Of a stretch of DNA of 41,442 bases, positions 1,911-41,442 are shown piece after piece. The DNA is taken from IMG/VR virus record IMGVR_UViG_3300028837_000778, positions 1 to 41,442 of that record. One strand, 5' to 3'. The stretch is from a virus. The notes below the pieces were generated by a model that saw only the letters and a program-made list of their open reading frames with translations, did not search any database and had not been told where the DNA came from. Numbering within the stretch: position 1 is the stretch's first letter; the number at the start of each line of letters is the position of its first letter. A program made the position numbers and the translations under genes.

Positions 1911-2224
1911 TCAATAGAATGGGCGGGTGATTGTTTATTTTACATCCTAGTTATTGCTCTATTTATGAGCTTGCGGGCTTTCTGAAGTCTGGCGTTTGTT
2001 TGGGCATCTGCTTTCCAAGAGTAACAAACGAGTTCGTCGTTACCAGTGGGTCGTTCCCCGTTTTTATTGCGGTGGTCTAGTTTATCTGGGTAGGTGCAAC
2101 ACGGTTCGCCTGTGCCAACTTTGGGCTTATCGGCAAAGTAGCAATCACTACAGTTCCGACGTTGGAATTCAGCTAATCCTTCATCCAACTTAAACCTTCC
2201 TTTCCTACCCGCCCACTCTATTGA
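1911..2224. repeat. Inverted repeat flanking the Cys-rich 82-aa gene
   Basis: Bases 1911-1928 and 2207-2224 are inverted copies matching at 17 of 18 positions (core CAATAGA(A/G)TGGGCGGG). They bracket the gene at 1940-2188 almost exactly. In a leftward transcript they would pair and enclose the whole gene in one loop. They could equally be the edges of an inserted cassette. Confidence 0.7.
1940..2188 (-). CDS. Cys-rich hypothetical protein, 82 aa
   Basis: The N-terminal half carries CSDCYF, CCTYP and a later CYSW, which could hold a metal. The C-terminus is a basic helix. Its start at 2188 follows GGAAGG. The gene sits inside an 18-bp inverted repeat, and a hammerhead ribozyme ends about 65 bases upstream of the start, so ribozyme cleavage would leave this gene at the 5' part of the 3' cleavage product. 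Function not recognised. Confidence 0.65.
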   Translation of the reverse strand: MDEGLAEFQRRNCSDCYFADKPKVGTGEPCCTYPDKLDHRNKNGERPTGNDELVCYSWKADAQTNARLQKARKLINRAITRM

Positions 2225-2254
2225 ACAGTCAAGCTCTATTCAGTTGTTAAGGTG

Positions 2255-2316
2255 CTAAGCCTCATCAGTCCGAGCTTTACTCGGAGACGCCGGATTATAC
2301 CGGCGTTTCGGCTTAG
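2255..2316 (-). ncRNA. Type II hammerhead self-cleaving ribozyme
   Basis: Reading the minus strand from 2316 to 2255: stem II 5' arm (2316-2310), GAAA (2309-2306), a 6-bp stem III hairpin (2305-2300 with 2293-2288, loop 2299-2294) closed by the A15.1-U16.1 pair, the cleavage-site C at 2286, a 6-bp stem I hairpin (2285-2280 with 2274-2269, loop UAAAG), the invariant CUGAUGA (2268-2262), and the stem II 3' arm (2261-2255). Stem II is 7 perfect base pairs. Every invariant core position of the hammerhead family is present, and open stem II defines type II. Predicted cleavage is between 2286 and 2285. Confidence 0.95.
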
Positions 2317-2435
2317 AGTAATTGTCTGAGTAATTCTCTCCTTTCGTCTGGCATCCTGATTTCACAAGCTAAGTCCCAAAGGATATAGTAGAGTTCATTC
2401 AGGGCAGTAGAGTAACTATCGCCAGGGATAATCAC
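2313..2435 (-). CDS. Possible 40-aa protein immediately upstream of the ribozyme
   Basis: An open frame from GTG 2435 to TAA 2313 encodes a protein-like sequence containing LNELYYILWDLACEIRMPDE. Its stop codon lies inside stem II of the hammerhead ribozyme. The start is weakly supported: no good Shine-Dalgarno site is close, and a hairpin (CAGGCT/AGCCTG) with an A-run precedes it. It is included because the composition looks coding and a good promoter lies just upstream. Confidence 0.4.
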   Translation of the reverse strand: MIIPGDSYSTALNELYYILWDLACEIRMPDERRELLRQLL

Positions 2436-2467: not shown

Positions 2468-2497
2468 AACATACCACACCTTTTACACTTGTGTCAA
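2468..2497 (-). promoter_or_regulatory. Leftward promoter upstream of the hammerhead unit
   Basis: On the minus strand TTGACA (2497-2492), an 18-base spacer ending GTGTGG, then TATGTT (2473-2468). The same spacer end and a TA-starting -10 recur at two other leftward promoters in this window. It would transcribe the short frame, the ribozyme and the Cys-rich gene. Confidence 0.65.
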
Positions 2498-2795: not shown

Positions 2796-3308
2796 TTAGT
2801 GAGGTTCAATTTCTACGATGAGAGACCCGGAAGGGTGTTGCCCTTTAACTTTGATAAGGTCATCGCTGTTTTTCACAGCCCAGGTATCAGGACTAATCTC
2901 GGTTAGCTGGACATCTTCCCCTTCCAGCATAGACTCGGCAAAGGGTTTCTTGCGCTTTGTCCCCCGGTAGTTCTTCTGTCGGTCATAGTCGGTGTATTGA
3001 TATTTCTCCCAGTTGATTAGCAAGATACGACCCGCCAGGTCAACCTTTATCCGGTCGCCATTCCAAGCCTTGATACATTTCTTAATAAGGGACTCTGGAG
3101 AATTAAGCAATTGAGCGATTCTTTTGGTAGAAAATCCCTGATTTTCATTGGCACAAATGACCCCGGGGACTCGGGAATTTCCAGCCAGCACCAGAAAATC
3201 ATACCAAACGGAGCGCTCTTCGGGTGTCATTTCTTCCCGCATACTTCCTATTAAACATTCCTTTACATATAGCTTTACCCAGTCCCTGTGTAGCGGTTCT
3301 TTTTGCAT
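2796..3308 (-). CDS. Phage replisome organiser / DnaD-like N-terminal domain protein
   Basis: 170 aa. The first 110 residues (DWVKLYVKECL, MTPEERSVWYDFLVLAG, RIAQLLN, INWEKYQY) follow the winged-helix pattern of the phage replisome organiser N-terminal domain. The C-terminal 60 residues are variable. It is the first gene of the leftward early transcript, under the promoter at 3357-3386. A second loader-like protein is encoded at 36633-37310, so the two may divide origin binding and helicase loading, which is inference. Confidence 0.7.
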   Translation of the reverse strand: MQKEPLHRDWVKLYVKECLIGSMREEMTPEERSVWYDFLVLAGNSRVPGVICANENQGFSTKRIAQLLNSPESLIKKCIKAWNGDRIKVDLAGRILLINWEKYQYTDYDRQKNYRGTKRKKPFAESMLEGEDVQLTEISPDTWAVKNSDDLIKVKGQHPSGSLIVEIEPH

Positions 3309-5276: not shown

Positions 5277-5699
5277 ATGGACTCGGCTCACTTAGCCTAT
5301 GCTGCTGGTTTTGTTGATGGCGAAGGTTCTATTATGATAGTGCAGGACAAACGGTTGAGTAGGGAGAAATTTTACCGTTTACGAGTTAGTGTTTGTAATA
5401 CTGATAAAACAGTTCTTGATTGGTTTTCCGCAATCTTTGGCTTTGACGGTGTTCATACCCGTAGCGGAGGATTCCAAAGGCAGCCTCAGAATAAACCAGT
5501 ATATACCTTGCTATTAGGAGACAAGAAAGCGGCAGAGTTTGTATCTTTAATATTACCATATCTTATCATCAAACGGAGGCACGCAGAATTAGCCATAAAA
5601 TTCCAAGCATTAAAGGATTATCAACGTAACACTTTTGATAAGGAAACGAAGCTATTTTTAGAAATGAAGAAAATCAATAGGAGGGGTAACAATGTTTGA
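5277..5699 (+). CDS. Free-standing LAGLIDADG homing endonuclease
   Basis: 140 aa. The motif AYAAGFVDGEGSI near the N-terminus is the LAGLIDADG helix with its acidic residues. IIKRRHAELAIKFQALK near the C-terminus matches the usual second part of the single-motif class, which works as a homodimer. Such genes cut intronless or HEG-free alleles and spread by repair. It overlaps the next start by 8 bases and has no intron of its own visible. It could mobilise itself or act on the nearby terL or intron site. Confidence 0.85.
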   Translation: MDSAHLAYAAGFVDGEGSIMIVQDKRLSREKFYRLRVSVCNTDKTVLDWFSAIFGFDGVHTRSGGFQRQPQNKPVYTLLLGDKKAAEFVSLILPYLIIKRRHAELAIKFQALKDYQRNTFDKETKLFLEMKKINRRGNNV

Positions 5700-5922: not shown

Positions 5923-8298
5923 ATGGCAGTAATACCGAAGACTGTTGAAAAGAGAGTCAGCCATTTTCGGGCGGAAGATCTGGCGAGATTAAGCGAGGCA
6001 GAGAGGAAAGAGCTGCTTGCCGGCTTGTCCATCAAAGAAAAGGCTGCTCTTTTTTATAGCTGGGAGTTCTGGGCTAGGGAAAAACAACTACCGCCACCCG
6101 GCGATTGGTTTATCTGGTTGCTGTTATCCGGTAGAGGATTCGGGAAGGCTTTAGCCATTGACACGCCTATTATGACAATCAATGGTTTCAAGTCTATGGG
6201 AGATATTGATATAGGTGATACTGTTTATGATGCTGAGGGGCAACCAACCAATGTTATCTTTGTTACAGGTATTATGTATAACCACTCTTGCTACGAGGTG
6301 CTTTTCTCAGATGGTAGCACGATAATTGCAGATGCAGAGCACCTTTGGTTGACACATACCCATAATTCAAGAAAGGCTTTAGCGAGGGCAGAGAATCCAC
6401 GAGTGTTTGCGGTGGAGAGAACTACTGAGGATATTAAGGCTACTCTATATTGTGATGGTAGGGGTTCACTTAACCATTCTATTGAGTGTTGCAAACCGCT
6501 AAAATTTCCTCGTAGGAAGCTCATTGTTAATCCTTACACGCTTGGGGCTTGGTTAGGTGATGGCTCAAGTGCGGGGGCGGAGATTACGGGTAGAGATGAG
6601 GAAATATTAAACTGGATTCAGGCAGATGGTTATCAGGTTAAAGCATATAATATAAAGGCGGATAAAGCACCAAGATACGGGATAGGTGGTTTACATAGAG
6701 GTCTTAAAGCACTCAACCTATTAAAGAATAAACACATCCCTAAAATATACTTAACAGCCTCAGTTGAACAACGGATGGCATTACTACAGGGACTAATGGA
6801 TACTGACGGACACATAACACCAGAAGGTCACTGTGAGTTTTGTTCTATGAAATGGGATTTAGCCGAGGGCGTTTATACTCTTTGTTCTACTCTAGGGATA
6901 AAAGCAGTTCTCTCTACTGGTAGGGCTACGATAAATGGCAAGGATTGTGGGGGAAAATACAGGGTAACATTCACTCCATATATTCCAATATTCAGATTAC
7001 AGCGTAAATTGGCGAGGGTTAAGCAAAAAGGTAATCAGGCATTACGACAAAACAGACGGTATATTGTTGACATTAAGTCTATTCCCAGTTGTGCGGTTAA
7101 ATGTATAAGTGTTGATTCGCCGTCACATCTCTATCTTGCTGGAAAGTCCTTGATTCCGACACACAATACTCGCTCATTAACCGAACTGGTTAGAAAATGG
7201 GCTTATGAGAAATATAGCCCTATCGCTATTGTCGGTCAGACTAAAGGTGATGTCAGGGATACGCTGGTTGAGGTTGGGGATAGCTCAATTCTAAAGATTA
7301 GCCCACCCTGGTTTATGCCGGAGTATGAGCCGTCAAAAAGAAGATTGACCTGGCCGAATGGTGTGCAGGCGATTATCTATTCAGGGGATGAACCTGACCA
7401 GTTAAGGGGGCCTCAGCATTGTAAAGCTGCTGTAGACGAATTAGCCAAGTTCCAATACGCACAGGAGTCGTGGGACAACCTTCTGATGGGCTTGAGGATT
7501 GGCGATAAGCCACAGGTGGTAGTAGCGACTACACCACGCCCTATCCAGATTATTAAAGACCTGCTCAAGGATAAAAGAGCAGTCGTTACCAGAGGGCATA
7601 CACTTGAAAATCAGGCTAACCTCGCCCCCGAGTTTCTGTCCTATATTATGTCAAAATATCAGGGGACTAAACTGGGCAGGCAGGAGCTTGCAGGGGAAGT
7701 TCTCTCCTCTATGGAAGGGCTGGTCTATGATGCCTTTAAACCTGATATGTCTATCATACCAAGGTTTGCTATACCTGAAGACTGGCCGAGATACTTCGGG
7801 ATGGACTTCGGCAGAGTAAATACAGCAGCCGTCTGGTATGCTATGGAGCCGGAGACAGGCTTTCTGTATCTCTACAGGGCATATAAGGCAAAGGCAAGCG
7901 TGGTAGAACACGCTGCCAAGTTCAGGGAACTGAGTAGAGGTGAGAATTTCAGGCGCAAGGTTGGGGGCAATCATCAGGAGCAAGAGGCAAGGGATGGCTA
8001 TGACATCGCTGGGTGGAAACTATTAGAACCCAAAATCAGCAACGATAAGTGGGAGAGAATACGGCGGGTCAACTCTCTCCACGCCCAGAATAAGATATAT
8101 GTATTCAGCGATTTGAACGAGTATATTGACGAGAAGATGTCCTTCTCTTACGAGATTGACAAAGAGGATAACCTGATAGAAGGCAAGATTCACAATGAGT
8201 CTACATTTCACTTTATGTCTGCCGAGAGCTATATCCTCAGCGAGTTTGAGCCGGACATAGGAAAAAAGATTAAGGGGCAGGTAGTCTGGCACTACTGA
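5923..8298 (+). CDS. terL: Terminase large subunit, interrupted by an intein
   Basis: 791 codons encode N-extein (residues 1-75), intein (76-415) and C-extein (416-791). The joined terminase would be 451 aa. The intein splits Walker A, SGRGFGK / T. The C-extein has a Walker B region (AAVDELAKF), the coupling motif VVVATTPRP, and an RNase H-like nuclease with MDFGRVNTAAVWY and later acidic residues. It powers DNA packaging and cuts the concatemer. Without protein splicing the ATPase site would be destroyed, so splicing is required. It is preceded by the homing endonuclease and membrane-protein genes. Confidence 0.92.
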   Translation: MAVIPKTVEKRVSHFRAEDLARLSEAERKELLAGLSIKEKAALFYSWEFWAREKQLPPPGDWFIWLLLSGRGFGKALAIDTPIMTINGFKSMGDIDIGDTVYDAEGQPTNVIFVTGIMYNHSCYEVLFSDGSTIIADAEHLWLTHTHNSRKALARAENPRVFAVERTTEDIKATLYCDGRGSLNHSIECCKPLKFPRRKLIVNPYTLGAWLGDGSSAGAEITGRDEEILNWIQADGYQVKAYNIKADKAPRYGIGGLHRGLKALNLLKNKHIPKIYLTASVEQRMALLQGLMDTDGHITPEGHCEFCSMKWDLAEGVYTLCSTLGIKAVLSTGRATINGKDCGGKYRVTFTPYIPIFRLQRKLARVKQKGNQALRQNRRYIVDIKSIPSCAVKCISVDSPSHLYLAGKSLIPTHNTRSLTELVRKWAYEKYSPIAIVGQTKGDVRDTLVEVGDSSILKISPPWFMPEYEPSKRRLTWPNGVQAIIYSGDEPDQLRGPQHCKAAVDELAKFQYAQESWDNLLMGLRIGDKPQVVVATTPRPIQIIKDLLKDKRAVVTRGHTLENQANLAPEFLSYIMSKYQGTKLGRQELAGEVLSSMEGLVYDAFKPDMSIIPRFAIPEDWPRYFGMDFGRVNTAAVWYAMEPETGFLYLYRAYKAKASVVEHAAKFRELSRGENFRRKVGGNHQEQEARDGYDIAGWKLLEPKISNDKWERIRRVNSLHAQNKIYVFSDLNEYIDEKMSFSYEIDKEDNLIEGKIHNESTFHFMSAESYILSEFEPDIGKKIKGQVVWHY
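6148..7167 (+). mobile_element. Ala1-type intein with LAGLIDADG endonuclease in terL
   Basis: 340 residues. Block A is ALAIDTPIMTINGFKSM, starting with Ala instead of Cys or Ser. Block B carries ADAEHLWLTHT. The endonuclease motifs are YTLGAWLGDGSS and LLQGLMDTDGHI, a two-motif LAGLIDADG enzyme. Block F/G is SPSHLYLAGKSLIPTHN, followed by Thr as the +1 residue. Ala1 inteins use a variant mechanism in which the +1 residue attacks the N-terminal junction directly. The insertion lies between Lys and Thr of Walker A, a highly conserved target. Confidence 0.92.
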
Positions 8299-22936: not shown

Positions 22937-23116
22937 ATGAAAATAAAGCTAAAGGAAAACCGCATATTCAGAAGCACCGTTGACGGCGAGGATATTCGGG
23001 TGGGTAATCAACCAACGGAAGTCAGTGATAAAGTTGGGAAATACCTGCTTGAGTCGTTCCCCGCTATACTGGAGCTTGATAGCTCAGAGGAAAAACCAAA
23101 GAAGGAGGCAAAGTAA
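22937..23116 (+). CDS. Small hypothetical protein, 59 aa
   Basis: ATG follows AAGGAGGTTTTAACA, a near-perfect site. Mixed charge, with a Lys/Glu-rich tail (SSEEKPKKEAK). One base separates its stop from the next start. Reading a longer downstream gene from 22980 would conflict with this frame, so the downstream start is set at 23118. Confidence 0.6.
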   Translation: MKIKLKENRIFRSTVDGEDIRVGNQPTEVSDKVGKYLLESFPAILELDSSEEKPKKEAK

Positions 23117-23117
23117 G

Positions 23118-24004
23118 ATGGGACTGTTAGTACCGAGATTTCTAGTACCAAGGAGGGAGCAAGTGGGGGATGGCATAACCAAGCTGAGAACCAGAACACA
23201 GGCACAGAAATTCACTACCGACTTCCGAAGTATTGAGAGTGCCTTTCCACAATGCCTCAACCTGCCTGACTGCAATCAGAGATGGCAGTATCTCGTTAGT
23301 GTAATGGGAGCGCAGGGGACACTAGACCCTGAGATGTGGGACTACATCGGGCGATTCAGGTCAGCAATCGGACAGCCGAGGCGGGAAGTCAGGGACAAGG
23401 TGGTAACTACCGCCTTTGTGGACTTCATAGTTGACCAGCTACAGACCGAGACATCCGTATTCGGTGACTTCAAATACCACGATTCAGGGATTGGCACTGG
23501 TGCAGAAGCAGCAGGAGATACTGCTCTTGGCACTCCTTGGGGTGGTTCAAGGGACACTGGCACGCAGACTGAGACAGACCACGATACCTACAAGTCTGTG
23601 GCTACTACTACCTACAACGCCACAAAAGCTATCACCGAACACGGGCTGTTCAACACCTCTGATACTGTAACCCTGATGGACAGAACCAAGTTTGACGCTA
23701 CCAATGTGGTGGATACCAATCAGATTGGAAATGGTCTGCCGTTAGCGCAAGTTAACGGGCAATACGGGGTGAATTGCGGGAACTCTAAGGGCAAAGCCTA
23801 TGACAATCCGCAGCCAAGCCCAGTGAATGACATTAAAGTAACTGGGAAGGTTCAGAGACTAGAGGTTGAGGAGTCTACCAATAAGACCTCAAATAGCGCC
23901 CCGCATCCAGCAACGATGGATGAAGAGATAGTCCAAGCCGAGAGGAAACTCTCGGAGAGCCTTGCGAGTTCACCTTTGAGATAAGTTTTACTGCTGGCGG
24001 GTAG
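23118..24004 (+). CDS. Split virion structural gene, exons 23118-23726 and 23960-24004
   Basis: Exon 1 gives 203 codons ending DATNVVDTNQI, exon 2 gives PCEFTFEISFTAGG and TAG; the spliced protein is 217 aa. A C-terminal beta strand ending in TAGG is familiar from phage tail-associated proteins, while the unspliced frame ends in an unrelated tail at 23984. The intron between the exons carries all group I core elements. The middle region (YKSVATTTYNATKAITEHG) is beta-rich. Start ATG 23118 is preceded by GAAGGAGGCAAAG. Likely a tail or neck protein. Confidence 0.8.
23727..23959 (+). ncRNA. Group I self-splicing intron, probably subgroup IA, 233 nt, no ORF
   Basis: P1 pairs exon 23721-23726 with the guide 23733-23738, with a U-G pair at the splice site. 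P2 is 23739-23744/23753-23758. P3 is 23765-23769/23899-23903. P4 is 23775-23779/23808-23812. P6 is 23819-23824/23841-23846. P7 is 23857-23861/23929-23933. P8 is 23904-23909/23917-23922. P9 is 23938-23955 with a GAAA loop. Consensus boxes P (AATTGCGGGAA), Q (AATCCGCAGC), R (GTTCAGAGACTA) and S (GATAGTCC) all occur in order. A hairpin between P7 and P3 (23862-23866/23886-23890) fits the P7.1 of subgroup IA. The terminal G is 23959. Confidence 0.95.
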
Positions 24005-40918: not shown

Positions 40919-41442
40919 TACCTGATTCCCCCTTTATATCCTTTTTGTTTCCCTTCTCATCCACTTCATAAAGGGTAAAGCCCCCCTTGCCCCTGATTTT
41001 GTCCGGGTATCTGGCAAATGCGGGCAGGTCAGCCAAATCAGATACTTTAACTCTACAAGCTACAAAGACACCTTCATCCCTAAATGTTCTAGCTTGTGCT
41101 ACGGTTGGGGAATAATGAATGCCCTTGCCGCATTCTTCCTTGAAACTGGCATCCCAATCAGGGGCTCTGTGGTGAGTTCTAGGTTTGAAAGATACTCCCT
41201 TCTGAGTGGTAAAATACTTGTTGACACTCTTGAACAGAACGGCGTATCCTCGCTTAACCGAGATACCACACTTGTCTAACCATTGCTGGGCAGGAATGAC
41301 ATCACAGCCTAGAATATTCCCTCCGCTCACCTTCACCTGCTTACTTCGGACAATAGTAGTAGCATAAGGGCTACGTGCTTCAACGTGGCTGTTGTCCCAG
41401 GCTACAACGTGGCTGTTGTCCCAGGCTTCAACGTGGCTGTTG
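40911..41442 (-). CDS. C-terminal part of repeat-containing DUF7666-like protein (continues at base 126-1)
   Basis: Open to the end of the window: repeats (VEAWDNSH, VVAWDNSH), then ARSPYATTIVRSKQVKVSGG and a globular C-terminal domain with YAVLFKSVNKYFTTQKG, APDWDASFKEECGKGIHYSP and FVACRVKVSDLADLPAFARY. This domain fits the DUF7666 family as I know it. With a 10-base overlap of the window ends it joins to the start at 126-1 and gives 215 residues. An internal ATG at 41336 is unlikely to be the true start. Confidence 0.8.
   Translation of the reverse strand, partial: NSHVEAWDNSHVVAWDNSHVEARSPYATTIVRSKQVKVSGGNILGCDVIPAQQWLDKCGISVKRGYAVLFKSVNKYFTTQKGVSFKPRTHHRAPDWDASFKEECGKGIHYSPTVAQARTFRDEGVFVACRVKVSDLADLPAFARYPDKIRGKGGFTLYEVDEKGNKKDIKGESGNG
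41381..41442. repeat. 24-bp tandem repeat, right end
   Basis: Two full units (41381-41404, 41405-41428, the second ending in TT instead of TA) and 14 bases of a third. The last ten bases equal bases 1-10 of the window. The unit count across the joined ends is about five. Confidence 0.9.

Follow-up and report, generated by a model that had tools for sequence, protein, structure and literature searches.

An early leftward transcript of this phage probably receives its 5′ end from a hammerhead ribozyme, and the gene cassette that follows is then probably transcribed and processed in the manner of pre-16S rRNA. The window analysed is the whole of virus record IMGVR_UViG_3300028837_000778 (41,442 nucleotides). 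On its minus strand, a type II hammerhead ribozyme is followed directly by a boxA of the Chloroflexota rRNA type, and then by a long helix closing around one small open reading frame (ORF). The features are listed below in the order in which they would be transcribed.

2796..3308 (−): gene for a protein with a phage replisome-organiser N-terminal domain, which opens the leftward early region
2468..2497 (−): promoter-like TTGACA-18-TATGTT, its second hexamer preceded by TG, some 150 nt ahead of the ribozyme
2313..2435 (−): putative coding frame of 40 aa, the UAA of which falls in the ribozyme's outer stem II
2255..2316 (−): type II hammerhead ribozyme, identified by pattern, fold and covariance model
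2316-2310/2261-2255 (−): ribozyme stem II, 7 bp, open; the class-typical 4 bp are 2313-2310/2261-2258
2309-2307 (−): ribozyme GAA
2306-2300/2293-2287 (−): ribozyme stem III, 7 bp, loop UAUAAU
2286/2285 (−): predicted cleavage site, after C2286
2285-2280/2274-2269 (−): ribozyme stem I, 6 bp, loop UAAAG
2268-2262 (−): ribozyme core CUGAUGA
2236..2255 (−): boxA GCACCUUAACAACUGAAUAG, with core UUAACAACUGAAUA at 2250-2237, identical to Chloroflexota rRNA-leader boxA
2205..2236 (−): 5′ (leader) arm of the helix, pairing at 30 of its 32 positions
2195..2205 (−): Shine-Dalgarno sequence GGAAAGGAAGG, abutting the 5′ arm on its inner side
1940..2188 (−): Cys-rich ORF of 82 aa, UUG start, inside the helix
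1899..1930 (−): 3′ (trailer) arm of the helix, pairing with 2236-2205

The hammerhead ribozyme and its class

The ribozyme RNA, read from 2316 to 2255 on the minus strand, is CUAAGCC-GAA-ACGCCGG(UAUAAU)CCGGCGU-C^-UCCGAG(UAAAG)CUCGGA-CUGAUGA-GGCUUAG. It has the invariant type II nucleotides (CUGANGA, GAA(A), and UH at the cleavage site) and the type II topology, in which loops close stems I and III while stem II is open. An earlier note on this DNA had described a complete type II hammerhead here, with this core, three stems, open stem II and predicted cleavage site, lying between a short frame that stops inside stem II and a Cys-rich gene, here the 40-aa frame and the 82-aa ORF; the description holds throughout. 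The predicted fold has an energy of −31.2 kcal/mol (z = −5.0), equalled by none of 200 shuffled sequences, and a hammerhead descriptor search of 200 shuffled windows gave no match.

The same note had proposed a search with the Rfam model as a check, and took a score below threshold as evidence against the ribozyme. In permissive mode, RF02276 (Hammerhead_II) matches with 31.8 bits, at an E-value of 5e-4 when 2 kb are searched and of 2.6e-6 over the whole record. This score is below the gathering score of 37, a curated threshold and not a structural feature, and on the note's own test the ribozyme would thus have been rejected. A default-threshold Rfam scan of the window misses the ribozyme and lists only a group I intron. 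The score is low because the Rfam model has a two-pair stem II and a 3′ tail; the corresponding ribozyme of another phage, L380, is also below the cut-off, at 33.3 bits.

Type II hammerheads were gathered from viral contigs by pattern, giving at least 120 stretches. A phage covariance model was made from 40 aligned hammerheads belonging to the 17-nt stem I subclass, from which the window and the phages L114 and L380 were excluded, and in these 40 members 13 of the 16 pairs covary, with changes on both sides. On 319 kb of sequence, the model gives the window 64.0 bits (E = 6e-19), L380 62.8 and L114 58.1, with the next-best match, at 13 bits, being background. Each of these three records has one such ribozyme, and their stems I and III differ in sequence by compensatory changes that keep the pairing. 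For the short subclass with a 17-nt stem I, the Rfam threshold misjudges, and the phage-built model is decisive.

In type II hammerheads, loop I contacts the stem II side, often as a pseudoknot with the 3′ tail. Members of the window's subclass have a 17-nt stem I (6 bp and a UNANN loop) and normally a stem II of 4 bp. The loop UAAAG fits the subclass, and no 3′-tail pseudoknot was identified in the window. Stem II, at 7 bp, is longer than the norm, which could hinder the usual contact of loop I with the region beyond it. It is concluded that this is a genuine type II hammerhead, predicted to self-cleave at 2286/2285. The ribozyme type is already known, and the window provides a further member.

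Among 138 distinct phage hammerheads with enough flanking sequence (contigs being counted regardless of relatedness), 102 (74%) carry at their 5′ edge the stop codon that ends an ORF of 40 codons or more, compared with 10.6% of random places, and 110 (80%) have a Shine-Dalgarno sequence and start codon within 60 nt downstream, compared with 14.6%; both are found at 82 hammerheads, compared with 2.0% of random places. They are therefore placed to cut between genes. As a class, phage hammerheads are, judging from these flanks, inter-gene cutters, and they are common in phages. The figures sharpen the observation of Perreault et al. (2011; PMC3088659) that single genes in prophages are flanked by hammerheads. 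The role of phage hammerheads has been open since 2011, and stop-to-start cutting is a simple rule that can be tested in phages with a cultured host. Three phage contigs (L020, L033 and L037) carry 5 to 9 type II hammerheads in series, apparently between consecutive genes.

The window obeys the class rule on its upstream side, where the UAA of the 40-aa frame falls in outer stem II. It resembles the bacterial and prophage type II hammerheads (RF02276; PMC3088659) in its open stem II, invariant core and placement around individual genes, but differs in its 7-bp stem II and in abutting a boxA instead of a Shine-Dalgarno sequence and start codon.

boxA, the long helix and the enclosed gene

The earlier note had interpreted the ribozyme as a transcript-separating element of the early region. 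The stop and start placement of the class supports this; the note overlooked boxA and the long helix, and it is this rRNA-type boxA, with a leader-trailer-like helix around the downstream gene, that is unusual.

boxA lies directly 3′ of the ribozyme. A 17-mer, ACCTTAACAACTGAATA, matched at least 120 stretches in the genome collection. Among the matches listed, 61 of the 80 with titles are from Chloroflexota, and at least 35 places are just upstream of 16S or 23S rRNA, 33 of them as judged by sequence motif. Rfam confirms rRNA at 4 of 12 loci tested (L140, L142, L150 and L163); the motif test had missed two. The boxA of the window is therefore that of Chloroflexota rRNA and the hosts are likely to be Chloroflexota; by boxA identity alone, the host of this phage is most likely a Chloroflexota bacterium. 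No integrated copy of the hammerhead and boxA was found in 393 + 396 genomes of two Chloroflexota classes, and a composite search of these 789 genomes gave one match, L381, which lacks a hammerhead by the descriptor.

In E. coli, NusB/S10 and the complex for rRNA antitermination assemble through boxA, and tethering of boxA is believed to assist the leader in finding the trailer (PMC10250234). A boxA in an mRNA leader also occurs at sites outside rRNA (suhB, a parE-like toxin gene and others), in a 2017 study of Nus-factor targets (PMC5725501), and lambdoid nut sites have one at the start of the early operon. Both differ from the present element in having neither a leader-trailer helix around a gene nor a ribozyme, and lambda nut also requires protein N and boxB; the likeness is judged here on boxA only.

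The helix (2236-2205/1930-1899) has 30 bp and encloses exactly one ORF (1940-2188), the stop codon of which ends about 11 nt before the core of the 3′ arm. The ORF product has no match in Pfam or PHROG. The 5′ arm holds a second, degenerate boxA-like stretch, CUUGACUGUUCAAUAG, and the 3′ arm can also pair with boxA itself, although more weakly (−15 vs. −49 kcal/mol in the window). Part of the Shine-Dalgarno sequence, GGUAGGAAAGGAG, is common to L114, L380, L284 and L410-L412.

The helix outscores all of 100 shuffles in eleven phage contigs, the window included. The position of the ORF is regular: in 12 phages it starts 10–32 nt beyond the 5′ arm, and its stop codon lies 6–18 nt ahead of the 3′ arm. 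The full architecture is present at 12 of 126 boxA places and at none of 1476 random ones. Of these twelve, five (L114, L380, L410-L412) were reached by patterns in which parts of the architecture are already assumed, and the other seven via boxA alone. L323, which has a strong helix and boxA, was rejected as a member on its ORF fit. The enclosed proteins differ from phage to phage, and those tested match no PHROG or Pfam family.

The arms themselves differ among phages, the 5′ arms being as little as 7% alike. Within a phage's own arms 94% of positions pair, compared with 49% in swapped arms, with 3–5 pair types per position, although the arms were picked as the best-pairing ones, and the 94% figure therefore counts only together with the shuffle control and the independent ORF fit.

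The same layout is found around host 16S rRNA. In 8 of 10 testable loci, the boxA and leader of pre-16S rRNA pair with the 16S trailer, as in L163, where CUGAAUAGUGGAAGGAAG pairs with CUUCCUUCCACUAUUCAG, and in the phages L284/L315, L319 and L267 boxA is inside the 5′ arm, as it is in the Chloroflexota pre-16S leader arm. The phage element thus has the same order as the pre-16S leader and trailer with boxA (rrnTAC; Warner et al., 2023; PMC10250234), namely boxA and then a long helix closing around the transcribed gene. It differs in having a small protein gene with a Shine-Dalgarno sequence in place of 16S rRNA, and in that a natural hammerhead precedes boxA; the hammerhead of Warner et al. 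is engineered only, and is at the 16S 3′ end (PMC10250234). In L410 (10956 and 11281) a second boxA occurs directly after the trailer arm, which recalls the second boxA before 23S in rRNA operons.

Recurrence, and promoter or ribozyme ahead of boxA

Hammerhead, boxA and helix recur in L114 and L380, around different ORFs (76 and 120 aa). The next gene in L380 is 75% identical in amino acids to window gene 371-964, and this is therefore the same place in a related phage. In all three phages, the ribozyme ends 2–4 nt before the boxA core. The L114 ribozyme is inside the end of a short frame, so that cleavage there would truncate that message. Elements with boxA, helix and ORF but no hammerhead occur in at least eight further phages, namely L319, L281, L284/L315, L307, L267, L317 and L410-L412. 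The ribozyme is restricted to three phages, or perhaps four; most relatives are without it, and the boxA-helix element therefore does not depend on it.

The possible fourth case came from a looser hammerhead and boxA pattern, which gave 26 stretches. It is in L386 (about 1003-1073), where a possible hammerhead of a subclass with a 22-nt stem I is directly before a boxA-like UUCACAACUGAAUA, with no clear helix. L122 has boxA and a shorter helix, with no ORF or ribozyme, and no recognised RNA family in its upstream region. Relatives found through terminase (L123-L139) have no hammerhead near the gene, many of these contigs ending before the corresponding place, and a nucleotide search of annotated phages gave nothing useful. 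In L237 (5281-6330), L198 and L341, which are Dehalococcoidia genomes and one viral contig, boxA precedes arms of the CTGAACGCTTGCCC type, which enclose a longer ORF. The helix is clear only in L237 among these, and they are probably another, prophage-borne version of the boxA-helix cassette.

In L319, L284/L315, L317 and L411, a good sigma-70-like promoter ends 12–26 nt before boxA. No promoter was found within 200 nt upstream in the three hammerhead phages; the promoter-like site of the window lies 217 nt upstream. L380 and L410-L412 have nearly identical arms, and L380 is fronted by a ribozyme where L411 is fronted by a promoter. As promoter and ribozyme occupy the same slot, we propose that the ribozyme supplies a 5′ end just ahead of boxA.

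The locus could also be read as an ordinary inter-cistronic hammerhead, which cuts a short upstream ORF from the next gene and has the boxA and helix as an independent neighbour. Most phage type II hammerheads do lie between a stop codon and the next Shine-Dalgarno sequence and start, with no boxA, and boxA-helix elements are mostly without a hammerhead. Such independence is nonetheless unlikely, given the close spacing of ribozyme and boxA core in three phages, including L380 with its different ORF and stems, and the promoter that fills the ribozyme slot in relatives.

Less probable still is that the inverted arms are the ends of a mobile gene cassette, with boxA as insertion site or passenger. 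This would fit a cargo ORF that is different in each phage, as expected of cassette exchange, but the pairing of the arms covaries while their sequences are not conserved, the 5′ arm runs into the Shine-Dalgarno sequence and the 3′ arm comes after the stop codon, and host pre-16S shows the same layout of boxA in a helix. That the ribozyme is a decaying or inactive hammerhead-like sequence, as its score below the Rfam cut-off and its long stem II might suggest, is very improbable in view of its perfect core and stems, its 64 bits in the phage model, and the two other phages with different stem sequences at the same position.

Proposed mechanism and other features of the window

In the reading that we prefer, of a cassette handled like pre-16S rRNA, the early leftward transcript would cut itself at 2286/2285, parting a leader or short ORF from the downstream RNA, which would then begin with the stem I hairpin about 35 nt ahead of boxA. 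This downstream part would be laid out like pre-16S: boxA, leader arm, a small gene in place of the rRNA, and trailer arm. NusB/S10 and other Nus factors would bind boxA and convert RNA polymerase to an rRNA-type antitermination complex, which would carry the polymerase through the early operon and aid leader-trailer pairing once the trailer emerges. RNase III or a relative would cut the long helix and so release both the mRNA of the small gene and the mRNA that lies downstream. In relatives, the promoter 12–26 nt upstream would start the transcript just before boxA, and in the window the ribozyme would give an equivalent 5′ end on a longer transcript. By analogy with rRNA, the phage may benefit from a processive polymerase on its early operon and from processing of the small gene's mRNA by RNase III.

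More broadly, we lean towards a new class of phage regulatory RNA, in which protein genes are presented as mock pre-16S, with boxA and a leader-trailer helix enclosing a single, exchangeable small early gene. The host's RNase III and its machinery for rRNA antitermination would thereby transcribe and process these genes, and a hammerhead would make the 5′ end wherever boxA has no promoter directly in front of it. Such borrowing of the host machinery for rRNA transcription and processing by a phage looks undescribed; a search of the literature outside most subscription journals found no report of a natural hammerhead with a boxA. If correct, it would tie early gene expression in the phage to RNase III and to the complex for rRNA antitermination. 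The boxA-helix element would also be a marker for Chloroflexota phages, and its slot points to a set of small early proteins with no known family.

Several other features were noted. At 2650-2772, a nested G+C-rich inverted repeat (GCCGCCCGGT...ACCGGGCGGC) separates the replisome-organiser gene from the promoter-like site; a partial copy of it lies at about 2659-2670. The two ends of the record (1-60 and 41383-41442) hold the same tandem repeat, GTGGCTGTTGTCCCAGGCTACAAC (NSHVEAWD in frame); the contig therefore probably broke in the repeat, and may be circular or permuted. In the terminase large subunit frame (5923-8298, plus strand, 791 aa), residues 282-333 match LAGLIDADG_3 and are flanked by two terminase parts; this is probably an intein, and a free LAGLIDADG/HNH endonuclease gene (5277-5699) is just upstream of this frame. 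The group I intron is at 23717-23955 on the plus strand (Rfam, 106.5 bits) and overlaps the end of ORF 22980-23984.
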